Origin: Muriicola sp. Z0-33
Lineage (GTDB): Bacteria; Bacteroidota; Bacteroidia; Flavobacteriales; Flavobacteriaceae
Direction of reading: 5' to 3'
DNA length: 64,000 nucleotides
NCBI RefSeq assembly: GCF_026126425.1
Contig: NZ_JAFMPW010000012.1
Location: 1-64,000 of the forward strand
The notes beneath the pieces were generated by a model, which saw only the letters and a list, made by a program, of their open reading frames with translations, did no database searches and was not told the origin of the DNA. Of this stretch, positions 1 through 18,808 are shown one piece after another; position 1 is the first letter of the stretch, and every line of letters starts with the position of its first letter. A program made the position numbers and the translations under genes.

Positions 1-67
1 CTCCTGTAAAACCTAGAGTACCTAAAGATATTTGCGCAAGAGTATTTAGTAAATCAGAATATTCCAT
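1..67 (-). CDS. Start of a hypothetical protein (partial, runs off the left edge)
   Basis: An ATG at 65-67 on the minus strand opens a frame of 22 codons with no stop before the window edge. It begins MEYSDLLNTLAQISLG, an amphipathic to hydrophobic start like those of small flavobacterial membrane proteins. The start lies 26 bases after the proposed cassette boundary at 93/94, the same arrangement as for the lipoprotein gene at 160-708, and this supports it as a real gene. The function cannot be told from so few residues. Confidence 0.5.
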   Translation of the reverse strand, partial: MEYSDLLNTLAQISLGTLGFTG

Positions 68-88
68 TACATAATTTAGTTTATGACC

Positions 89-146
89 TACAACGTCTCG
101 TGTATGGTGCGTATCCCGAAGGGTATGCACTATACACATTGTTGTA
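89..146 (-). repeat. attC-like imperfect hairpin between two cassette genes
   Basis: Read on the minus strand, the outer boxes are TACAAC and GTTGTA (perfect complements). Next come unpaired spacers of 3 and 5 bases (AAT and GAGAC). Then inner arms of 17 bases, GTGTATAGTGCATACCC against GTGTATGGTGCGTATCC, match at 14 of 17 when one is reverse-complemented. A TTCG loop closes the hairpin. Short outer boxes ending in AAC and beginning with GTT, an asymmetric unpaired spacer and a longer inner stem are the anatomy of integron attC sites. The outer boxes depart from the RYYYAAC/GTTRRRY consensus apart from the AAC/GTT core. The hairpin could also end transcription, but there is no T-run after it. 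Confidence 0.55.
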
Positions 147-731
147 CCACGTATTTTTTTCAGTCATTTACTTGAACTAACTTTCCTTCTGGCATACTCA
201 TATCTCGATGTCCGCCAATTACAAGCCACTTGCCATTTTGCTTTACCATAAAATCACTCCATCTTAAAGTCCCTCTAAAGGTATTTCCCTTTGTTGGTCC
301 ATCAGGCATATCCTCACCATAATAAGTGAATGTTTCAGTATGTGTATAGTGTGCAATAGCTGATTTACCACCATCTAGTATTTCAATTTCTATGGGGGTA
401 ACCTCCATTTCTAAACACTCTTCTTCCGCCTTCATAATTTCCCAAAATTTGGCCATTCCTTCCTTTGTTGTCAATTCATTTTTTCTTGACTCCCATTTCT
501 TCCAATCGGGATGGTGATAAGCCATATAAGTTTCAAAATCATTGTCCTTCCACGATTTAAATCTACCTTCAATTGCATCCCATACCTCTTTTTCAAGCTG
601 TTCTTGACTTAACTCTTGGCTGTTGGTGGTATCTGATGTCTTTTCGGTTTCATTGCATGAATACAATAAAACAATCGGAATAATGATAAAGGAAAATAAA
701 TATCTCATGTTTCTATTTTTATGTGGTACAA
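94..731 (-). mobile_element. Putative single-gene integron-like cassette
   Basis: The segment begins after the G of GTTGTACCAC (complement of 723-732) and ends at the G of GTTGTA (complement of 89-94). If excised as a circle, its own head (TTGTACCAC) would join the G of its tail, making an R' box that pairs with the tail box GTGGTACAAC over 10 of 10 bases, and 12 of 13 when extended. In the linear array the neighbour's head (TTGTAGGTC) pairs over only 6. Such cassette-specific pairing is what integron cassettes show. The segment holds one gene, and its ATG is 23 bases from the proposed boundary. A small element with terminal inverted repeats is the alternative reading. Confidence 0.45.
160..708 (-). 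CDS. Lipoprotein with an NTF2-like (SnoaL/DUF4440) domain
   Basis: This 182-residue protein has a signal peptide of about 17 residues ending in a lipobox (LLYSC, Cys18), so it should be a lipid-anchored periplasmic or surface protein. A short Ser/Thr/Glu-rich linker follows. Residues of about 40-175 have the NTF2-like pattern: an N-terminal helix region with WDAIEGRFKSWKDND, an HYTHTETFTYYG strand and an ending strand KQNGKWLVIGGHRDMS. This fold is used by many small enzymes and binding proteins, so the substrate cannot be named. The gene lies alone between attC-like repeats, with no promoter of its own that I can see. It is probably cassette cargo. Confidence 0.8.
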   Translation of the reverse strand: MRYLFSFIIIPIVLLYSCNETEKTSDTTNSQELSQEQLEKEVWDAIEGRFKSWKDNDFETYMAYHHPDWKKWESRKNELTTKEGMAKFWEIMKAEEECLEMEVTPIEIEILDGGKSAIAHYTHTETFTYYGEDMPDGPTKGNTFRGTLRWSDFMVKQNGKWLVIGGHRDMSMPEGKLVQVND

Positions 732-799
732 CGGTATTGTATATAAAAAGTGCGTCTTTTTAACGCACAATATTTTCAGTCGTGACTGATTGTTAAAAA
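727..799 (-). repeat. Second attC-like or attI-like site, upstream of the cassette gene
   Basis: On the minus strand the site opens with TTTTTAAC then AAT (compare CAAC then AAT in the site at 89-146) and ends in GTTGTACC (compare GTTGTAGG). Inside are two small hairpins: CAGTC/GACTG at 777-788 and GTGCGT/ACGCAC at 750-768. The outer boxes do not pair well with each other, unlike the first site. It may be the end of a preceding cassette, or the recombination site nearest the recombinase, which need not be palindromic. Confidence 0.35.
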
Positions 800-840
800 T
801 AGGGGAGATCTCAAAGGTAGCGAAATTTGACGCATTTTTT

Positions 841-1110
841 ATATGCTTTGTTACCCAATGGGGCGTTGCGATACCCTCGGGTTGAGGTATTGCCAACCCA
901 GGCTGCCCCCACACAAACACGAGCCCCATCCCACCAGGTAAGGGAAGATGACCGCTGGCACCTGACAATAAGAACGGTTGACGAGCTCACAGCAATGACC
1001 AAACTCCCATAAACGGAATTTTCCGAGTAGTGATATTTTTCAGATAGCAATTATTGGATGGATTAGTTCGGAACAGAAAACGCCCTCGTGGGTAACTTGT
1101 TATATGCGCA
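841..1110. other. GC-rich block framed by imperfect inverted repeats, next to the recombinase
   Basis: This covers most of the gap 709-1129. The ends are ATATGCTTTGTTACCCAA (841) and the complement-matching GGGTAACTTGTTATAT (about 1089-1104): GTTACCCA pairs with TGGGTAAC, and the adjoining GGGGCG with CGCCCT in part. About 13 of 16 bases pair in the inner arms, and the ATAT ends pair across a 5-base mismatch. The interior is plainly richer in G+C than the neighbouring genes and holds a small hairpin around 870-886. Short frames of 61-87 codons cross it on both strands, but none has a recognisable start, domain or codon pattern. It may be the array's leader or primary attachment region, or a structured RNA. 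Confidence 0.35.
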
Positions 1111-1129
1111 CTAAAATAGCACTTATCCC

Positions 1130-2278
1130 TTAGAAGTTTTGGGATAAGCGGATGTTTTTATTCTCTTTTTGGTTTTGTGTTATATCTTTTAAAACAAGGT
1201 CTAATGGGCTTTCTATTTGCAAAAGGTCTTTCTTACACACATGCGTATAGATCATAGTGGTTTCTGGTTTGGCATGACCAAGCAATTCTTGTATATAGCG
1301 TAAATCTATCCCCCGTTCCATCAAATGCGTGGCATAAGAATGCCTCAAAGTATGAGGTGTTACTTTTTTAGTGATTTTAGCTTGTCTGCAACTGCGTTTT
1401 AAGAAGGCTCTGATGCTGCTTGCACTATAGTTCTGCCCCTTTGCACCCTCTACAAAATACTTCTGTGGCCTGTAGCTGATTAAATAATTTTGTAAAAGTG
1501 GTATAAAACTTTTGGCCATAACCACATTTCTATCTTTCCTCCCTTTTGCATTTCTTATCAACACCTGGCCCCTGTCTACATCTATATGTCCTAGTTCTAA
1601 TTGCAACAACTCCCCTATACGCAAACCACAGGAGTACATTAATGCAAGAACTGCACGGTGCTTTAGATTAGTAGTACTTCTTAGCAGGTCTATTATTTGT
1701 TGGGCACTAAGTACCTCGGGCAACTTTTTACTCTTTTTAGGGCGTGTTAGTTCATCGCCATTTATACTACACATAGGATAAAAAACCGCCAAATGTTTTA
1801 AGGAACTTATCAATTGCCGGTGTGTACTGATAGCAATTCTTTTGGTCTTTACAGTATATTGCACAAATAAACGTACCTCATAGTTTGTCACTACATCAAG
1901 GGGTTTCGGATGAATAAATTTTAAAAACTGCCAAACAAATCCCCCATAAACACTTATGGTGCTATGGCTATAACGTTTACCTCCCAGATAATCTCTGTAG
2001 GAAGTATTTAATAGAAGAGCGTCTTTTGAAGGGAATGCTAATTCTTGTTTTGACGTAAACTCCTCTTTAAAAGCCACATCATACCCCTCTTTTTTTAGAT
2101 AAGCACTTAAGGCGACCTCAGAATGGCTTGAAAATGCAATATAAAATGCCCGATGTGTTCGGCTCCACTTAACACCAGGATATTTTTTTATGTACTCCTT
2201 TAGCTTATATGAATAATCAAAAACAATTTTGAGCTGCTCGGTCTTCCTGTGCTGAAATCGTTCAAAAGAAATAGTCAT
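1130..2278 (-). CDS. Tyrosine recombinase / integrase, probably acting on the adjacent cassette array
   Basis: This is a 382-residue site-specific recombinase. Residues of about 1-70 are the small N-terminal domain often seen in flavobacterial integrases (GVKWSRTHRAFYI). A core-binding domain follows at about 85-175, and the catalytic domain at about 190-365. All catalytic residues are present: Arg220 in CGLRIGEL, Lys245 in NAKGRKDR, His309 and Arg312 in HTLRH, His335 in LLGHAK and the nucleophile Tyr344 in TMIYTHV. The tail IESPLD resembles the RSPLD tail of integron integrases, but the stretch before HTLRH is about 30 residues shorter than in IntI and lacks its extra helix region. The longer frame begins at a TTG at 2284; the ATG at 2278 is the better start. 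It is co-directional with the genes at 1-708. Confidence 0.9.
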   Translation of the reverse strand: MTISFERFQHRKTEQLKIVFDYSYKLKEYIKKYPGVKWSRTHRAFYIAFSSHSEVALSAYLKKEGYDVAFKEEFTSKQELAFPSKDALLLNTSYRDYLGGKRYSHSTISVYGGFVWQFLKFIHPKPLDVVTNYEVRLFVQYTVKTKRIAISTHRQLISSLKHLAVFYPMCSINGDELTRPKKSKKLPEVLSAQQIIDLLRSTTNLKHRAVLALMYSCGLRIGELLQLELGHIDVDRGQVLIRNAKGRKDRNVVMAKSFIPLLQNYLISYRPQKYFVEGAKGQNYSASSIRAFLKRSCRQAKITKKVTPHTLRHSYATHLMERGIDLRYIQELLGHAKPETTMIYTHVCKKDLLQIESPLDLVLKDITQNQKENKNIRLSQNF

Positions 2279-8487: not shown

Positions 8488-9515
8488 GCTAAAATCGCCT
8501 TATTTATCCTCTTGATCAATCCCGGACCTTCATAAACAAATCCTGTCCATAGTTGCACAAGGTCTGCACCAGCCGCTAACTTCTCTAGCGCGTCCTCGGC
8601 AGAATGTATGCCACCCACCCCTATAATCGGGAAGGATTTATTGCTCCGCTCAGCTAAAAACCTAATCACTTCCGTGCTCTTCTTTGCTAAAGGTTGCCCG
8701 CTAAGCCCTCCTTTTTCCTCTGTAAGTAGTGCGTTCGACTTAAGATTATCCCTTTCGATGGTGGTATTGGTTGCAATAACACCATCTATAGCTGTCTGGT
8801 TTACAATCCATATGATATCCAGCAATTGGCTGTTGCTCAGGTCCGGAGCAATCTTCAGGAGAATGGGCTTTTCTTTGGTGTTGAGTTTTTGGGCCTGTTT
8901 GCGGTTCTCTACTTTAAGCTGACTCAATAATGCAGCTAAAGGTTCCTTATCCTGCAATTCTCTAAGTCCCGGGGTATTGGGAGAACTCACGTTGACCACA
9001 AAATAATCTACATGCTCAAAAAGTGCATCAAAACAAATGAGGTAATCTTTTGTAGCCCGTTCATTAGGGGTAAGTTTGTTTTTCCCAATATTGCCGCCAA
9101 TAAGTACCTTATGATCTTTCTTTAACCTTTCCACGGCATCATATACCCCTCCATTGTTAAACCCCATTCTATTTATGATAGCCTTATCAGGTTTAAGCCT
9201 GAAAAGCCTTTTTTTAGGATTCCCTGCCTGTGGTTTGGGAGTAACTGTGCCTATTTCAATAAAGCCGAAACCGAAATGGGATAATTCATTATACAATTTG
9301 GCATCCTTATCAAAACCGGCCGCAAGACCTACGGGGTTTTTAAATTTCAATCCAAAAACCTCGCGTTCCAGACGCTTGTCTTCAAGAGCGTACATGCTTC
9401 TGAATAAAGGCGCAAACCCAATTTTTGAAAAGAATTTAATCAGTTTAAACGAAAGATGGTGTACTATTTCCGGATCTATAAGAAAAAAGAGTGGTCTGAT
9501 GAGGGACTTGTACAT
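8475..9515 (-). CDS. pyrD: Dihydroorotate dehydrogenase (quinone), class 2
   Basis: It oxidises dihydroorotate to orotate at the inner membrane, passing electrons to quinone, in pyrimidine synthesis. At 346 residues, the N-terminal helical extension ([20 protein letters not shown]) marks the membrane-bound class 2. FMN and substrate motifs are clear: [47 protein letters not shown] with the catalytic Ser, and [15 protein letters not shown]. The longer frame to 9545 begins at TTG; the ATG at 9515 fits the family. The final residues NKQ and the stop codon are encoded by repeat units of the adjoining 7-bp array, so the repeat appears to have replaced the native 3' end. Confidence 0.97.
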
Positions 9516-11449: not shown

Positions 11450-14308
11450 TTAGTTGAGTTTAAAGCTTAACCTTGCAAACAGGTGTCTACCATTGGTTCC
11501 AAATTGTACAGATCTTCTGGAATATACAAACCTTCCGCTAGATCTGAACGCCGGGTCGTTCTCATCCGGGTACACATCAAGCAAATTGTTTGCTCCTACC
11601 ACCAGTCTCAAATTATCAGAAACATTATATCCAATGGTCAGGTCGGTAATAACTTTCCCTCCAAAGGTAGTATCCACATTTGGATCATTATTGTTGGTAG
11701 CTTCCATTACCTCACCAAAATAACTGTTTCTTAAAAAGAAATTCCACTTGTCCCCTACAGTAAGGTTATTGGAAAAGGTACCCTTGGTAGTAGGCACGGC
11801 CGATTCCAGATAAATTCTACTGGTAGGATCAAAATAAGTATCTGATAGTCCGGCATTAGCCACAGCTGTTGGCACTTTTACACTCTCCACTGAAGTTTCA
11901 GAAAAGGTGAATGCCAGGATATTATCTATCCTAACATTATCCGATATATTGGCAGAATGATCAAGAACTATATCCAAACCTTTGGTCTGCGTATCTACAC
12001 TATTGGCAAAGAAAGCCGCCCTGCTTGCATTGGCCTGAGCAAATAAGATAGCAAGTTCAGGATCTCCCCCGTCATCGAACTGACCTGTCAGGATAACCCT
12101 GTCGTCTATATTAACCAGATACCCATCCAGGGTAATCTTAAGATTGGCAGAAGGAACATTTGCAGTAAATCCTGCAGTTAAACCAAATGAGGTTTCTTCT
12201 TTCAGGGACTCAATACCTAAAATTCTGGCTACCCTGGAAGTGTTTGGAAATATCCCAACCTCATTGGGAACACCATCAACAAACAAAGTAGAAGTAGAAT
12301 TAAAATGAATTTGGTGTAAAGAAGGCGCTCTAAAACCGGTTTGTAAACCACCTCGAATGTTAAAATTATCGGAAGCTTTAATTCTTGTCGCAAGTTTAAA
12401 ATTAGTAGTTCCACCAAAATCAGAATAGTTTTCGTAACGCACTGCACCACTCACTAAAATAGACTCGGTAAAATCTGCTTCAATGTCAAAATACCCTGCA
12501 ACCGAGTTTCTGAATGCATCTACCTCGTTTTCTGGTTTGAACCCCGGAAATACCTGTATCCCTCCTGGCCGGCTACTTCCAAAGAAATCTGTAGGAACTA
12601 CAGATGAAGGGTCGGTAGGATCGTGTACATTACCTTGTATATTATACTGTGCATAGGAAGATTCTTCCCCTGCTACGATGGCGTAATTCTCTACCCGGTA
12701 CTCTGCTCCAAAGGCAATGTTTAAGCCCGCCATTACATCGTCAAAAAACTTATTTACATCAAAGTTAGTGGTATTCTCGCTATAATTAAATCCACCTGAA
12801 TCGGCTTCAAAGGGCGTAGAATTGGCCAAAGATGCGTTGTTAGAATTGGTTATTCTATAAAGAAAAGAGTTCTGCCCGAATGTGTTACTAAAGTCAACAT
12901 TCCACCCGTCACCTACTTCTCCTTTAATGCCTATAGAGGCTGATTTATCTGTGATATTTGAGTTAATTTGTGGTAAAAAGCCATTTATATAGGCCGGGGT
13001 ATACGCCCTTGATTGATAGGGTAAACGATAAAATCCGGTTGCAAAACCATTTTTGTATCCAAGACCTCCAAAACCATATAGTTCAGATTTTTCGCCTAAT
13101 GGAATAGACATATTTGCAAAAAATTGTGCCCCTCTCAATTCAGACTGGCCAACATTCATATTGTAATCACTTCTCACCTGGCCCCGGGCTCCTAATTCTG
13201 CTTCTGTAACATCAGCACCCAATATGGTCCTTAAGTCGTCCTGTGTTTCTCCGCCGGTCAGGCTTACACCTGCTGCACCAGCATATTGAAAAATATCTGC
13301 AAAATCGTCGTCTAATAATAAGGAGGTGTCATAACCGTCTGCGGAGGCAACTCTTTCTATTGAGTTATAGGCATTAAAAATTTGCCCTTCCCATTCTTGC
13401 ATTCTGTTGGTCAGGCCGCGGTAATTGAAATTTCCGGTGAAATTAATATATCCGCCATCCTCTCCAATTGGCAGCCCATAATTGAGGCCCAAATTTATTT
13501 TTTCGCCGTCCACACTTTTAGACGGGCCGGCTTCACTTGTAAAGTTAGCCCCTGTGGTAACATCTACCTCTAGTTGATCTGTAGTGTTCTTTAAAACAAT
13601 ATTGATAACCCCGGCAATGGCATCAGACCCGTATTGGGCTGCCGCGCCATCGCGTAAAATTTCAATCCTCTTAATAGAATTGGCTGGGATAGCGGTCATA
13701 TCTGTCCCTACTGCTCCCCTTCCAAAGGTACCATTCACATTCACCAGTGCCGTTTTATGCCTGCGCTTACCATTTATAAGCACCAACACCTGATCAGGGC
13801 CCAAACCTCTCAGGGAAGCCGGGGCAATATGATCTGTCCCATCAGAAATAGATTGTGGATTAGATGAGAAAGAAGGTGCCGCATAATTAAGGATTTCAGT
13901 AACCGTTATCTGTGGTGATGTCTGTGCCAATTCGGAAACGTCCAGGACGTCTACTGGAACGGGGGTATCAGTTGCTACCCTGTTAGGGTTTCTTGATCCA
14001 ATTACCACCACATTGTCCAGGGACAATCCTGATGTCAGGACAATGTTCATCACAGAACTGTCTATGACAACAGTTTTAGTCTCGTAGCCAATGTAGGAAA
14101 CGACCAGGGTATCACCAACTGCCGCATCATCTATGGTAAAATTTCCATCAAAATCGGTAGTTGTACCCACATTTGTACCTTGCTTTACTATAGATGCTCC
14201 AACGAGAGGTTCCCCATCAGTATCCGTAATTGTACCCGTAACCTGGGCAAATAGGGCCCCGGAGGTAAGCAAAGCAAATACAATACTTAAAAAGTAGTTT
14301 TTGTTCAT
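11450..14308 (-). CDS. TonB-dependent outer-membrane receptor
   Basis: The 952-residue protein has a signal peptide (about 1-21), then a CarboxypepD_reg-like domain (VTGTITDTDGEPLVGASIV, about 22-95), a plug domain (about 115-245, with SLRGLGPDQVLVLINGKRR and RIEILRDGAAAQYGSDAIAGVIN) and a 22-strand barrel ending in HLFARLSFKLN with the terminal aromatic pattern. It imports a large or scarce ligand with energy from TonB-ExbBD. No SusD partner lies next to it, so it is more like a stand-alone receptor than a SusC pair. The ligand is unknown; the plug resembles receptors for siderophores or organic compounds. The upstream region before pepT carries divergent signals. Confidence 0.95.
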   Translation of the reverse strand: MNKNYFLSIVFALLTSGALFAQVTGTITDTDGEPLVGASIVKQGTNVGTTTDFDGNFTIDDAAVGDTLVVSYIGYETKTVVIDSSVMNIVLTSGLSLDNVVVIGSRNPNRVATDTPVPVDVLDVSELAQTSPQITVTEILNYAAPSFSSNPQSISDGTDHIAPASLRGLGPDQVLVLINGKRRHKTALVNVNGTFGRGAVGTDMTAIPANSIKRIEILRDGAAAQYGSDAIAGVINIVLKNTTDQLEVDVTTGANFTSEAGPSKSVDGEKINLGLNYGLPIGEDGGYINFTGNFNYRGLTNRMQEWEGQIFNAYNSIERVASADGYDTSLLLDDDFADIFQYAGAAGVSLTGGETQDDLRTILGADVTEAELGARGQVRSDYNMNVGQSELRGAQFFANMSIPLGEKSELYGFGGLGYKNGFATGFYRLPYQSRAYTPAYINGFLPQINSNITDKSASIGIKGEVGDGWNVDFSNTFGQNSFLYRITNSNNASLANSTPFEADSGGFNYSENTTNFDVNKFFDDVMAGLNIAFGAEYRVENYAIVAGEESSYAQYNIQGNVHDPTDPSSVVPTDFFGSSRPGGIQVFPGFKPENEVDAFRNSVAGYFDIEADFTESILVSGAVRYENYSDFGGTTNFKLATRIKASDNFNIRGGLQTGFRAPSLHQIHFNSTSTLFVDGVPNEVGIFPNTSRVARILGIESLKEETSFGLTAGFTANVPSANLKITLDGYLVNIDDRVILTGQFDDGGDPELAILFAQANASRAAFFANSVDTQTKGLDIVLDHSANISDNVRIDNILAFTFSETSVESVKVPTAVANAGLSDTYFDPTSRIYLESAVPTTKGTFSNNLTVGDKWNFFLRNSYFGEVMEATNNNDPNVDTTFGGKVITDLTIGYNVSDNLRLVVGANNLLDVYPDENDPAFRSSGRFVYSRRSVQFGTNGRHLFARLSFKLN

Positions 14309-14403
14309 AAGGTTTTGTTTTGAGTTAAATAATTCTAATAAGGTACATAAATATTTTTATAGCGAATTACTTATGTTAACACTCCGCGGCCTATTTACAG
14401 GCG

Positions 14404-14431
14404 TTTGCTTACTAACATTGTCGTAAATTTG
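14404..14431 (+). promoter_or_regulatory. Promoter of pepT
   Basis: TTTG at 14404-14407 and TAAATTTG at 14424-14431 match the Bacteroidota -33/-7 pattern (TTTG, then TAnnTTTG) with suitable spacing. The ATG of pepT follows 16 bases later, giving a very short leader. Confidence 0.65.
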
Positions 14432-14447
14432 AAATAAAACAACTTTA

Positions 14448-15683
14448 ATGAAAGGTATTATTGAGCGGTTTATTAGCTATGTCAAAATAGATACCCAAAG
14501 CGATCCAAATTCCAACACTACCCCCAGCACTGAAAAACAGTGGGATTTGGCAAACAAACTGGTAAAGGAACTAAAGGCGATGGGCCTGCAGGAAGTCAGC
14601 ATAGACGAAAATGCCTATGTCATGGCAACCTTAGCCGCTAATAGCACGGCAGACATCCCCACCATAGGGTTTATCTCTCACTTCGATACCACTCCTGATT
14701 TTTCGGGCACCAATGTAAAACCTCGAATTATTGAAAATTATGACGGGAGCGACATCGTATTAAATGCTGACAAGAACATAATTCTTTCCCCCGATTATTT
14801 TGAAGAACTACTTTTCTACAAAGGACAGACACTTATTGTTACTGATGGTACTACCCTCCTTGGTGCCGATGACAAGGCAGGGATAACCGAAATCATGGAG
14901 GCCATACAATTTTTAATTAACCATCCGGAGATAAAACATGGGAAGATCCGCATAGGGTTTACCCCCGATGAAGAAATTGGACGGGGAGCTCACAAATTTG
15001 ATGTGGATAAATTTGGGGCGGCCTGGGCCTATACCGTTGACGGGAGTAGAATTGGGGAATTGGAATATGAAAACTTTAATGCGGCGGTTGCAAAAGTAAA
15101 GGTCGTTGGTAAAAGCGTACATCCCGGACATGCAAAAGGCAAAATGGTAAATGCCACAACCATCCTGAACAAATTCATCTCCCTGTTGCCAGAAAATGAA
15201 GTCCCTGAACACACCTCGGACCGGGAAGGGTTTTATCATATTTATCATCTAAAGGGTGAAATTGAACATGCTGAATTGGAAATGATCATCCGGGATCACG
15301 ACAAGCAAAAATTTGAAGAGCGCAAGCAATTGTTAAACACCCTGGCTGGCCAGATAAACGAAGTTCATGGCCATAACCTTAACCTGGAAATTAAGGATCA
15401 GTACTACAACATGAAAGAAAAGGTAACCCCTGTCTTCCACATTGTAGAAATTGCAAAAGAAGCAATGGAGGCCTTGAATATCACACCAGTAATTCAGCCC
15501 ATAAGAGGGGGTACAGATGGCTCACAACTAAGTTATATGGGCCTTCCCTGCCCCAATATTTTTGCGGGGGGGCATAATTTTCATGGCAAATACGAATTTA
15601 TAGCGGTGGAGAGTATGCAAAAGGCCGTTGAAGTTATCGTAAAAATTTGCGAACTTACTGCTGCTAAATACAGTGAGTCATGA
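14448..15683 (+). CDS. pepT: Peptidase T (tripeptide aminopeptidase)
   Basis: This cytoplasmic M20 di-zinc enzyme removes the N-terminal residue from tripeptides. At 411 residues it is full length. Metal and catalytic residues are visible: His78 and Asp80 in SHFDTTPD, Asp141 in LGADDKAG, Glu175/Glu176 in TPDEEIGRGA, Asp198 in TVDGS, and the late His in GGHNFHGKYEF. The dimerisation/lid domain at about 210-320 includes GKSVHPGHAKGKMVNA. The stop overlaps the start of the next gene by 4 bases (ATGA), so the two are translationally coupled. Confidence 0.97.
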   Translation: MKGIIERFISYVKIDTQSDPNSNTTPSTEKQWDLANKLVKELKAMGLQEVSIDENAYVMATLAANSTADIPTIGFISHFDTTPDFSGTNVKPRIIENYDGSDIVLNADKNIILSPDYFEELLFYKGQTLIVTDGTTLLGADDKAGITEIMEAIQFLINHPEIKHGKIRIGFTPDEEIGRGAHKFDVDKFGAAWAYTVDGSRIGELEYENFNAAVAKVKVVGKSVHPGHAKGKMVNATTILNKFISLLPENEVPEHTSDREGFYHIYHLKGEIEHAELEMIIRDHDKQKFEERKQLLNTLAGQINEVHGHNLNLEIKDQYYNMKEKVTPVFHIVEIAKEAMEALNITPVIQPIRGGTDGSQLSYMGLPCPNIFAGGHNFHGKYEFIAVESMQKAVEVIVKICELTAAKYSES

Positions 15684-16276
15684 GTGCAGAAAAAATTGAG
15701 GCGTACTTTGCCAAAGAACATCCTTTTAAAGAAGGGATAGCCACTTTAAGAAAAATTGCCCTGAAAACCAATATGGGTGAAACACTAAAATGGGGATCTC
15801 CCGTGTACACTGTAGATGGCAAAAATGTACTTGGGATTCTTGCTTTTAAAAATCATTTTGGCATTTGGTTCTTTAACGGGGTGTTTTTAAGCGACCCTAA
15901 AAATGTACTCGAAAATGCCCAGGAAGGAAAAACCAAAGCCATGCGGCATTGGAAATTTACAGCCAATGATGCCATTGACCAGGCAGCAGTATTGGCCTAT
16001 ATAAATGAGGCTATTGAAAACCAGAAGAAGGGCCTGGTGGTAAAAGCTGAAAAAAATACGAAGAAGATTATAGTTCCGGTATTGTTAAAGGAAGCTTTTG
16101 CCAAAAACAAATCAATGCAGTCCAAATTTGAGACGCTCTCCCCAGGCAAACAAAGAGATTATTGCGAATTTATCAGCACGGCAAAACAGGAAAAGACCAA
16201 ATTAACTCGTCTTGAAAAGATTACGCCTATGATTCTTGATGGTGTTGGGCTTAATGACAAATATCGTAAATGCTAA
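15680..16276 (+). CDS. YdeI/DUF1801-family protein
   Basis: The 198-residue protein has an N-terminal DUF1801-type fold (about 3-115: AYFAKEHPFKEGIATLRKIA, ETLKWGSPVYTVDGKNVLGI, FGIWFFNGVFLSDP) and a C-terminal YdeI/OmpD-associated helical tail (about 135-198: VPVLLKEAFAKNKSMQSKFE, SPGKQRDYCEFISTAKQEKTK). The family is widespread but its biochemical role is unknown. It overlaps pepT by 4 bases, so it is made from the same message. There is no signal peptide, so it is cytoplasmic. The stretch 16277-16406 after it shows nothing. Confidence 0.85.
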   Translation: MSAEKIEAYFAKEHPFKEGIATLRKIALKTNMGETLKWGSPVYTVDGKNVLGILAFKNHFGIWFFNGVFLSDPKNVLENAQEGKTKAMRHWKFTANDAIDQAAVLAYINEAIENQKKGLVVKAEKNTKKIIVPVLLKEAFAKNKSMQSKFETLSPGKQRDYCEFISTAKQEKTKLTRLEKITPMILDGVGLNDKYRKC

Positions 16277-16406
16277 GGACCCTTTGCTGGTGCGGCTATA
16301 TATCGGTCAAGGCTATGATTTGGCCTTATGGGACTTATGTAGGAACTTTTTGAAGTTATCATTATGCTGGGGCTGAATTATCAATAGCAGGATGAAAATT
16401 CATTTT

Positions 16407-17027
16407 TTAAGTGTATAACGAAATTGCCCAGGCCGTATAGAACCAGGCCAATCCGGCCCAGCTTATTGGATGAATTCTTCTTAATGTTTGCCAATCATAG
16501 ATAAAGAATGAAGCAAAAAAAGTATGCCATACCAGAACATAGAAAAGCTCCCAATTGTCTACCAGAAACACCTCAGAAACCCTACCTATTATGGGTTCTA
16601 TAGGCAATACTATAGCCCAGAAAACAAACCTTTTATGTTTTGTGGCATTTTTTCTGTGTAAATATGCCAACAAGATAAAAGTAGCAAAACTTAGCATGAG
16701 CAGCCTGTTGGCCTTTACAAAGGGTTCCATAGCTTCCCATCCCTTGAATATTGCTATAAAAATATAGAGAGTGCTCACAAAGACAGCTATTGCCAGAATA
16801 AAACCAACCCTTCCCCATTTCATATGAGCATTAATCTTTTTTCTAAGAATGAAATAGGACTGGGCCAAAAATGTCCCAAACCACGCAAACATCAATAATC
16901 CATGGATAATAAACTTTGGGTCACTGTTGCTTTCCTGGCCGATATCGGTAATTAAATTATCTGAGAATGCGATGAAGGAAAGAATTAGAAGTAAGGAACT
17001 CACAACGGTGAAGTAATATTTCTTCAT
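16407..17027 (-). CDS. Integral membrane protein, possibly DUF2306-like
   Basis: The 206-residue protein has about six hydrophobic helices (about 5-22, 42-61, 74-95, 108-124, 135-150, 160-200). His43 in the second helix (FIIHGLLMFAWFGTF) and the HAHM-like NAHMKWGRVG segment between helices resemble the haem-binding pattern of DUF2306-type proteins. A function in cofactor binding is inference only. No signal peptide is cut. It lies just downstream of the oxidoreductase gene on the same strand (45-base gap), so the two may share a transcript. Confidence 0.7.
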   Translation of the reverse strand: MKKYYFTVVSSLLLILSFIAFSDNLITDIGQESNSDPKFIIHGLLMFAWFGTFLAQSYFILRKKINAHMKWGRVGFILAIAVFVSTLYIFIAIFKGWEAMEPFVKANRLLMLSFATFILLAYLHRKNATKHKRFVFWAIVLPIEPIIGRVSEVFLVDNWELFYVLVWHTFFASFFIYDWQTLRRIHPISWAGLAWFYTAWAISLYT

Positions 17028-17072
17028 TCCTTAAATTATTAATGTAGTCCAAAGTGGGTCCCCATAACAAGC

Positions 17073-18419
17073 CTATTTAGGTAATTCCCATCCATTGTGA
17101 TAGCTAGCTTCTGTAATTTTATTGGCCGCAGCATCTGTAAATTTGCCCTTTTCCTGATCCCAATAAACTCTGTTCCCGGTTTTGTAGGCTACATTGCCCA
17201 TATGAGAAACCAGGGCCGTTTCATAACCCACTTTTATCGGGGCATTTAGCTGGGAGGCATCCCGGCTTTTAACCGCTTCGATAAAATTAACCGTATGCAG
17301 ATCTAAACCGCTACCCTTGTTCTGCTGTATCGGCAACCTTTCCATCTTGGGTATCCCGTCTTTTCCCCAGCCCTGAAATTCCTTTTCCGGAATTACCTCC
17401 CATCCACCTCTGTCTAACACAAGGGTTCCGTTATTACCAATAAACGCAATCCCGTGATTACGTCCGTAATTACCTCCATCTATCCCGGTTGCGTGTTCCC
17501 ATAAAATGGAAAAGTCATCATATTCAAAAACCGTTTGTAGTGTATCAGGAGTTTCGGAGGCATCTTCGGGGTAGGCAAATTTGCCCCCAATAGCCATAAC
17601 AGATTTAGGAGTACCCGCTTTCATACCATAAAGGGCATAATCTATCAGGTGTACGCCCCAATCTGTCATTAGCCCGCCCGCATAGTCCCAAAACCATCGG
17701 AAATTAAAATGAAATCTATTTTGGTTAAAAGGCCGCATAGGTGCCGGACCAAGCCACATGGCATAGTCAACGCCCTCCGGACTGGCCGTATCTGCCAATA
17801 TAGGTACGGGTTTCATCCATCCCTGGTACGCCCATGCCTTAGCCAACCTGATTTCTCCCAACTGACCCGAATGCACAAAATTAATAGCATCTACAAAATG
17901 CGGCTGGCTCCTCTGCCATTGGCCAATCTGTACCATACGATCACTGGCATTAACAGCATTGAACATAAGATTACATTCCTGAATGGAATTGGCAATGGGT
18001 TTTTCGCAGTATACATCTTTCCCTGCTTTGATGGCGTCTGTCAGTTGTAAACAATGCCAGTGGTCCGGGGTACCAATTACCACCACATCAATATCCTTAT
18101 TCTCCAGTAATTTCCTGTAGTCATTATACCATTTAGGCTTTTTGATCCCCGCTTTTTCTAATTCAGCGGTACGGCGCTCCAATACTTTTTTATCTACATC
18201 ACACAAGGCTACTACACTAACTTCACTTATTTTAAGCAAGGAAACAAGATCGGAAAAGCCCATTCCATTGCATCCTATCAGGCCTACGTTTATACGGTCA
18301 TTAGGGCCTACCTTTTTTCGAAGTACAGCCAGCAGCTCTGTCGGGAATAAAAAGCTGGCTCCTGTACCCATAATAGCAAGGGAACTGTGTTTTAAAAATT
18401 TTCTTCTGGATCTGCTCAT
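17073..18419 (-). CDS. Gfo/Idh/MocA-family oxidoreductase with Tat signal
   Basis: The 448-residue protein starts with a twin-arginine signal (SRRKFLKHSS, then a hydrophobic stretch to about 32), so it is folded with its cofactor before export. The Rossmann domain (about 40-165) includes VGLIGCNGMG, ALCDVDKKVLERR, VVIGTPDHWHCLQLTDAI and GKDVYCEKPIANS with the family's EKP motif (catalytic Lys). The C-terminal domain (about 170-440) has WFWDYAGGLMTDWGVHLIDY, where the His is typical of the active site. Bacteroidota carry many such enzymes, some acting as NAD-dependent glycosidases. The sugar here is unknown. Confidence 0.9.
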   Translation of the reverse strand: MSRSRRKFLKHSSLAIMGTGASFLFPTELLAVLRKKVGPNDRINVGLIGCNGMGFSDLVSLLKISEVSVVALCDVDKKVLERRTAELEKAGIKKPKWYNDYRKLLENKDIDVVVIGTPDHWHCLQLTDAIKAGKDVYCEKPIANSIQECNLMFNAVNASDRMVQIGQWQRSQPHFVDAINFVHSGQLGEIRLAKAWAYQGWMKPVPILADTASPEGVDYAMWLGPAPMRPFNQNRFHFNFRWFWDYAGGLMTDWGVHLIDYALYGMKAGTPKSVMAIGGKFAYPEDASETPDTLQTVFEYDDFSILWEHATGIDGGNYGRNHGIAFIGNNGTLVLDRGGWEVIPEKEFQGWGKDGIPKMERLPIQQNKGSGLDLHTVNFIEAVKSRDASQLNAPIKVGYETALVSHMGNVAYKTGNRVYWDQEKGKFTDAAANKITEASYHNGWELPK

Positions 18420-18470
18420 AATTACGCCTTTTTATAGAGAGTTAATATACGTATTTATGACAATGGTATA

Positions 18471-18497
18471 AAAAAAAACACCGGTTAAACCGGCGTT
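18471..18497 (-). terminator. Terminator after yajC
   Basis: CCGGT-TAA-ACCGG stem at 18481-18493, followed on the minus strand by a run of eight or more T residues. It lies 24 bases after the yajC stop. Confidence 0.85.
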
Positions 18498-18520
18498 TTA
18501 TTATTTAGGTATAAGCTGTA

Positions 18521-18808
18521 CTATTTCTCCTTGGGAGCATTTAACTTCCTGCTCATTTCCATGGAGATCGCTGAACGGTCAAATTTAAGTCTGCCCGCCA
18601 TAGTCTCTATGATACAAGATAAGTCTTTGTCGTTCAGATCAATTATTTTCCCGTGTAAACCACTTTTGGTTATTACTTTATCTCCTTTTTTAAGTGCCGC
18701 AGCAAATTTCTTTTCATCTTTCTGACGTTTCATTTGAGGGCGTATCATAAAGAAGTACGCCACTGCAAATATCAAGATCATAGGAAGAAACTGTCCTATA
18801 TCGTTCAT
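18521..18808 (-). CDS. yajC: Preprotein translocase subunit YajC
   Basis: A 95-residue accessory subunit of the SecDF-YajC complex in the inner membrane. The single N-terminal helix (about 6-22, LPMILIFAVAYFFMIRPQ) ends in the IRPQMKRQK motif of the family. The soluble domain follows, with GDKVITKSGLHGKIIDL. It ends the group nusB-DUF1573-yajC (gaps of 47 and 21 bases), an order that is common in flavobacteria. Confidence 0.95.
   Translation of the reverse strand: MNDIGQFLPMILIFAVAYFFMIRPQMKRQKDEKKFAAALKKGDKVITKSGLHGKIIDLNDKDLSCIIETMAGRLKFDRSAISMEMSRKLNAPKEK

Follow-up and report, generated by a model that had tools for sequence, protein, structure and literature searches.

The first 2278 bp of the window, by which we mean the whole 64,000-nucleotide stretch of Muriicola sp. 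Z0-33 DNA that was analysed, very probably hold a sedentary integron from a lineage of its own, with a recombinase that is sister to the known integron integrases (IntI) but lies outside them. The locus is situated at the start of contig C3, base 1 of the window being base 1 of the contig, and at the level of sequence it was confirmed as a real integron in reverse orientation. Support comes from the recombinase, an attI, arrays of attC-like sites on one strand, a footprint at the cassette boundaries, a folding bias towards the bottom strand and the kinship of the recombinase to IntI. Read from right to left on the minus strand, the order is recombinase, attI, cassette 1, site B, cassette 2, site A and cassette 3 (Table 1). 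The original prediction of an integron-like array beside a tyrosine recombinase thus stood, with an attI, attC-like sites, an intact recombinase and the boundary footprint. Its run of small genes stood in part: the cassettes are on the recombinase strand, but only one complete gene (160-708) lies in this stretch. Likewise, its 58-bp attC-like site is site A, whereas site B had been missed.

Table 1. Features of the integron locus in the window and of attC-like sites on two resistance plasmids.
Sequence	Feature	Position	Strand	Details
NZ_JAFMPW010000012.1	Recombinase gene	1130..2278	-	Tyrosine recombinase, 382 aa, intact; Pfam PF00589, residues and tree
NZ_JAFMPW010000012.1	Extra N-terminal alpha/beta domain (residues ~1-70)	2071..2278	-	AlphaFold model and alignment; no Pfam match
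NZ_JAFMPW010000012.1	attI core GCATATAACAAGTTACCC	1090..1107	-	Putative exchange point G(1096)^T(1095)
NZ_JAFMPW010000012.1	Cassette 1, 364 bp	732..1095	-	Limits set by attI and site B; no convincing ORF
NZ_JAFMPW010000012.1	attC-like site B, 131 nt	726..856	-	R'' GGGTAAC (856-850), R' GTTGTAC (732-726)
NZ_JAFMPW010000012.1	Cassette 2, 638 bp	94..731	-	Opens TTGTAC; R'' of its own attC is GTACAAC (boundary complementarity)
NZ_JAFMPW010000012.1	Cassette 2 gene, DUF4440/SnoaL-like	160..708	-	182 aa, probable lipoprotein; Pfam 7.6e-8
NZ_JAFMPW010000012.1	attC-like site A, 60 nt	88..147	-	R'' GTACAAC (147-141), R' GTTGTAG (94-88)
NZ_JAFMPW010000012.1	Cassette 3, cut by contig end	1..93	-	ORF from ATG at 67 (MEYSDLLN...)
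NZ_CP072192	attC-like site region	2296-2420, 11477-18611	one strand	Around tet(X), estT, erm(F), ere(D), blaOXA
NZ_CP013691	attC-like sites	12163-12293, 8808-8939, 641-773, others		Region with repeated recombinase/IS91 pairs

The recombinase matched the Pfam family Phage_integrase at E 1.6e-39, together with a SAM-like N domain, and its residues R220, K245, H309, R312, H335 and Y344 were invariant in an alignment of 22 relatives. Conceivably, the locus could be a divergent form of the canonical IntI integron: the attI/attC layout and the R boxes look alike, the IntI model TIGR02249 is the second-best NCBI family for the recombinase, and the likewise matched NF040815 is described as 'site-specific tyrosine recombinase/integron integrase'. 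However, TIGR02249 gave the recombinase 192.6 bits, which is below its cut-off of 265 bits, and the insert of ~42 aa that is specific to IntI was absent. Ahead of its HxLRH motif, the window recombinase is ~40 residues shorter than IntI4 (2A3V), and its KGxKxR and HxLRH motifs are 58 residues apart, versus 100 in IntI and 60-62 in XerA. The lack of the extra IntI region, a domain regarded as essential, had been predicted. We placed the recombinase in a tree of 68 rows that included IntI, XerA (5hxy), XerC/D and two other large integrases of the window genome. The window recombinase and its Bacteroidota relatives joined IntI with a support of 99/90, apart from XerA and XerC/D, while IntI itself was a single clade (100/100) and the Bacteroidota recombinases lay outside it as one group with moderate support (72/89). 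The two other large integrases, which belong to mobile elements, fell far outside, and separate XerC/XerD-like genes of the window genome grouped with E. coli XerD. This was in agreement with the proposed separate lineage next to attC-like sites, and it set the recombinase beside IntI rather than in a phage or ICE integrase clade. As the recombinase falls outside the IntI clade and reads towards the array, we consider a divergent canonical integron highly unlikely and favour the separate lineage.

The AlphaFold model of the recombinase had a pLDDT of 84.7 overall and of ~90 in the N-terminal domain, for which it predicts the layout E2-10, E13-19, H24-31, E37-39, E44-48, H51-63 and E67-70. XerA and IntI4 were the nearest solved structures, XerA (5hxy, 4a8e) being closest by sequence and the top match in Foldseek. 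Like the window recombinase, archaeal XerA has no IntI insert; however, in the tree it is IntI that the Bacteroidota rows join, and XerA is not known to run attC arrays. The guaB gene, which adjoins the recombinase gene in the window, was conserved at this place in 0 of 80 relatives, and between the two genes (2330-2410) there is a short degenerate tandem of CTGTTTACTGCTAA-like units.

Directly past the recombinase gene, an attI-type GTT was found at 1096-1094, which is position 36 counted from the recombinase stop codon. The ACCC following this GTT complements the GGGT before the AAC of the first attC, that of site B. Among the relatives, we assigned an attI in 75 loci, 45 by boundary complementarity and 30 more by motif. 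They share ATATAACnA followed by GTT, or a variant of it (consensus TATATTTGTnnnnATATAACnA followed by GTT), mostly 25-140 nt past the recombinase stop codon. The motif TAnnTTTG, the -7 element of Bacteroidota promoters, was present at most 45 nt from the exchange point in 24 of these 75 loci, while 1.4 were expected from shuffles, and 22 of the 24 carry it 21-23 nt before the GTT. The copy in the window, TATTTTAG, is imperfect. The motif before attI may serve as an array promoter.

In the mechanism that we propose, the recombinase would join cassettes into the attI past its own stop codon, between the G and the TT of ATATAACnAGTT, and would exchange cassettes at the attC-like site that follows each gene. 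It would act on the folded bottom strand of attC, as happens in classical integrons, and with this strand as substrate, inserted genes would run in the direction of the recombinase gene. Where TAnnTTTG stands at a fixed distance before attI, as in some relatives, this element may drive the first cassettes.

The bottom strand of site A, which is the plus strand of the window, was predicted to fold at -13.7 kcal/mol, as compared with -5.5 in shuffles, 0 of 200 of which folded as well; the gene strand folded more weakly, at -10.4 kcal/mol. The folded bottom strand has outer boxes TACAACG/TGTTGTA, an unpaired 4:2 spacer and an inner stem of 17 bp, and so the AAC/GTT outer boxes and the asymmetric unpaired spacer expected for this site were recovered when it was folded as a single strand. 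For site B, the values were -16.3 for the bottom and -15.4 for the top strand, and in its predicted fold the inner stem is paired and the R boxes are not. A covariance model of related sites, which was built from 40 sequences including site B but not site A, matched site A at 91-144 with 44.3 bits (E 1.5e-6) and site B at 729-853 with 41 bits (E 7.9e-6), both in a search of 442 kb.

A first collection of sites was made with a scanner tuned to AACA/CGTT boxes and ungapped arms, which demands arm pairing and penalises A.C. It comprised 344 sites, most of ~125 nt and some of 50-60 or 170-200 nt, with AACG and TGTT invariant on the modelled strand. Stem cells were paired to 95.4% and covariation was 0.535 versus 0.140 in shuffles, but these counts are partly circular because the scanner selects sites by the pairing of their arms. 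This does not apply to the non-Watson-Crick stem positions, where the gene strand had 452 A.C and 85 G.T against a background of 10 and 111, since A.C is penalised by the scanner. Mismatches that are A.C on the gene strand are G.T on the bottom strand, which therefore folds better. Indeed, the bottom strand folded better in 298 of the 344 sites and worse in 32, as compared with 31 and 38 in the background. One ungapped arm register was kept in 262 of the 344 sites, a number to be read with the fact that the scanner disallows bulges, so that bulged sites could be missed. In classical attC sites, the choice of strand is made mainly via extrahelical bases (PMC2727003). The folding bias suggests that the substrate of the present system is probably the folded bottom single strand.

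An integron cassette circle closes at G^TT, which requires the opening bases of a cassette to be complementary to those that precede the AAC of its own attC. In the related arrays, 114 of 156 neighbouring site pairs were complementary at all four boundary bases, whereas shuffles gave a mean of 8.3 and a maximum of 20. Per base, complementarity was 80-84% in the true pairing and 26-47% in controls that paired bases of a single site or reversed the order of the pairing. The window genome displayed full complementarity at 12 of 20 neighbouring boundaries, one of which is the attI pair, versus 1.3 in shuffles (maximum 6 in 2000 shuffles). To judge from these sequences, the four-base complementarity is the footprint of cassette circles that were closed at G^TT. 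Ordinary intergenic repeats or terminators with an unrelated recombinase as neighbour would also agree with the fact that the sites follow genes and form stems. However, terminators have no reason to complement, with the opening bases of a cassette, the far end of that same cassette, nor would such hairpins form one-strand arrays that begin at the recombinase, with an attI adjoining its stop codon. We regard this explanation as exceedingly improbable and retain the view that the sites delimit integron cassettes.

Several features are shared with canonical integrons, such as class 1 integrons and the Vibrio superintegrons: an attI ending in AACnAGTT beside the recombinase gene, attC sites with AAC/GTT R boxes, an asymmetric central spacer and a variable terminal part, attC lengths that are mostly near 125-135 nt, a G next to AAC on the bottom strand, an array of single-gene cassettes with G^TT boundaries (here known as a footprint), and an R-K-H-R-H-Y tyrosine recombinase at the array head. 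By contrast, the Bacteroidota recombinase lacks the IntI insert, possesses an extra N-terminal domain and reads towards the array, and most of the collected Bacteroidota sites keep an ungapped arm register, with a strand asymmetry that would arise via A.C/G.T and not via bulged bases. The recombinase facing the array, as had been foreseen, resembles the atypical integron of the Treponema denticola type, where intI is transcribed towards attI and the cassettes (PMC3607928). The orientation is the same, but the Treponema genes are described as intI (PMC3607928), while the window recombinase belongs to another clade.

The array, which had been predicted to go on past the left edge of the window, continues on other contigs of the window genome, the assembly offering no sequence to the left of base 1. 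In the 442 kb of the window genome that were read, the covariance model found 24 sites at E <= 0.5, namely the two of the window and others on contigs C14, C16-C20 and C23, with one on C33. Contigs C16-C20 and C23 are short (3-11 kb), as is expected where an array breaks an assembly. Contig C20, of 6.9 kb, has a near-copy of site A, and on one of its strands four sites are placed after genes. Rather than being widespread away from arrays, the sites in the parts of the genome that were read occur almost only on such short array contigs. The 357-kb contig C33, which is not one of the array contigs, has a lone attC-like site near its middle (160957-161003; L210 10957-11003).

A recombinase homologue was present at E <= 1e-60 in 33 of 119 related genomes, and at the same threshold the family profile matched 200 of 395 sampled Bacteroidia genomes, in part of which arrays were checked. 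Dozens of Flavobacteriaceae had both an attI and one-strand arrays. Our set of 80 named loci stems from Maribacter, Gillisia, Algibacter, Winogradskyella, Polaribacter, Leeuwenhoekiella, Psychroflexus, Flavobacterium, Chryseosolibacter and others. Downstream of the recombinase, these loci had 178 sites on the array strand versus 18 on the other strand (273 kb), and upstream there were 85 on both strands together (694 kb). On contigs of more than 25 kb, the 3' side of the recombinase was at most 10 kb from the contig end in 33 of 49 cases and the 5' side in 3 of 49. Within 60 kb of two complete genomes, the scanner found ~44 (G014) and ~50 (G068) matches on the recombinase strand and 4 on the other strand in each. 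The covariance model found none in these two genomes despite their dozens of long sites; its search across genomes detects short sites only, and its zero counts were not taken as negatives. A third complete genome, G084 (L052-L053), has a relative of the recombinase with at most one scanner match and no detectable array. In one G014 array, near-identical attC-like sites are repeated (L041 345-479, 13299-13433, 15411-15545 and 15968-16102; L043 3687-3821 and 4244-4378), some of them ~560 bp apart, as if one cassette had been duplicated. A metagenome-assembled genome labelled Rhodobacteraceae (L121, in a bin labelled Alphaproteobacteria) carries a recombinase relative with four downstream sites, reflecting either transfer or a binning error.

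The genomic distribution also bears on the question of which enzyme works the sites. This could be another recombinase, such as the cell's XerC/XerD, for which the window genome has genes of its own, and the neighbouring gene might then only regulate or be a relic. Nevertheless, in genome after genome the arrays start at a gene of the window type with an attI 30-160 nt from its stop codon, and the window gene is intact with conserved catalytic residues. Action by another recombinase therefore appears very unlikely to us, and we infer that the window recombinase is the enzyme acting on the attC-like sites.

The 208 cassettes between sites had a median length of 922 bp, and their longest ORF was on the array strand in 169, on the opposite strand in 7 and absent in 32. 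Among 111 cassette ORFs we found 63 Pfam families, the commonest of which occurred only four times. A cassette gene of another genome (L047:5280-5804) is 44% identical to the DUF4440 gene of the window. Different genera had few cassettes in common, with 8 pairs over 200 bp.

Canonical IntI exceeded its curated cut-off in 105 of 395 sampled genomes of the GTDB phylum, almost all of them outside the class of the window, where a single genome of the sample did so. At the canonical IntI loci of the phylum the scanner saw few canonical attC sites, being tuned to AACA/CGTT and ungapped arms, and only L236 gave a count, with 5 sites and 2 of 4 boundaries complementary; hence site numbers were not compared with those of canonical loci. 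The IntegronFinder 2.0 survey reported one complete integron in Bacteroidetes proper, in Salinibacter (PMC9024848). This near-absence is plausibly due to searches that rely on IntI models. In the literature searched, which did not extend to preprints and most subscription journals, we found no earlier description of the Bacteroidota lineage.

We think it reasonably likely that Bacteroidota hold a second lineage of integrons, sister to IntI, in which attC recombination proceeds without the IntI domain and the strand is chosen by G.T/A.C rather than by bulges, and that resistance cassettes such as those of tet(X), estT and blaOXA are native to this lineage, some having later passed into Acinetobacter and Enterobacteria. 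In the Flavobacteria, which are abundant in the sea and in association with animals, it is a different recombinase clade that stands at the head of large arrays. Three questions can now be put to the test: does attC recombination require the IntI domain, or was this domain added later; in what way is the folded strand selected when there are no bulged bases; and where were tet(X) and other resistance genes of Flavobacteria packaged prior to their spread? The system would also offer a mechanism for an unexplained uptake of genes without homology in Riemerella. According to passages of a 2026 paper on natural transformation in Riemerella anatipestifer, aph(3')-IVb enters without flanking homology, bringing along 27 bp at its 5' side and a 3' segment of 140 bp that folds like attC, and the mechanism was left open by the authors (PMC13148043). 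An entry that is independent of homology and involves an attC-like 3' segment is what the two systems have in common, and a Bacteroidota integron would explain it; the passages of PMC13148043 considered here name no recombinase, attI or array.

Traces of the system were found on resistance plasmids. The 'xerD' gene beside tet(X3) on the Acinetobacter schindleri plasmid NZ_CP044484 (L061 4974-5567) encodes a fragment of 197 residues, truncated at the N-terminus, that is 64% identical to the family member L133 and 38% to the nearest IntI. By its sequence, it is a fragment of a Bacteroidota integron recombinase. For attC or attI at this tet(X3), inspection by eye gave only a possible truncated half site, which we do not claim. 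On the Myroides odoratimimus plasmid NZ_CP013691 (L224), attC-like sites lie by tet(X2), aadS and blaMYO-1, with a model match of 46.9 bits. The Riemerella anatipestifer multidrug plasmid NZ_CP072192 (L223) has 8 distinct attC-like sites on one strand and 0 on the other at the same threshold, and its annotation lists no recombinase of the Bacteroidota integron kind on the plasmid. Between the sites lie segments that carry tet(X), estT, erm(F), ere(D), blaOXA and a MarR gene; two of these genes, erm(F) and ere(D), are oriented against the array. Of the 8 boundaries around the circle, 7 are complementary. The plasmid backbone itself lies between two sites with complementary boundaries.
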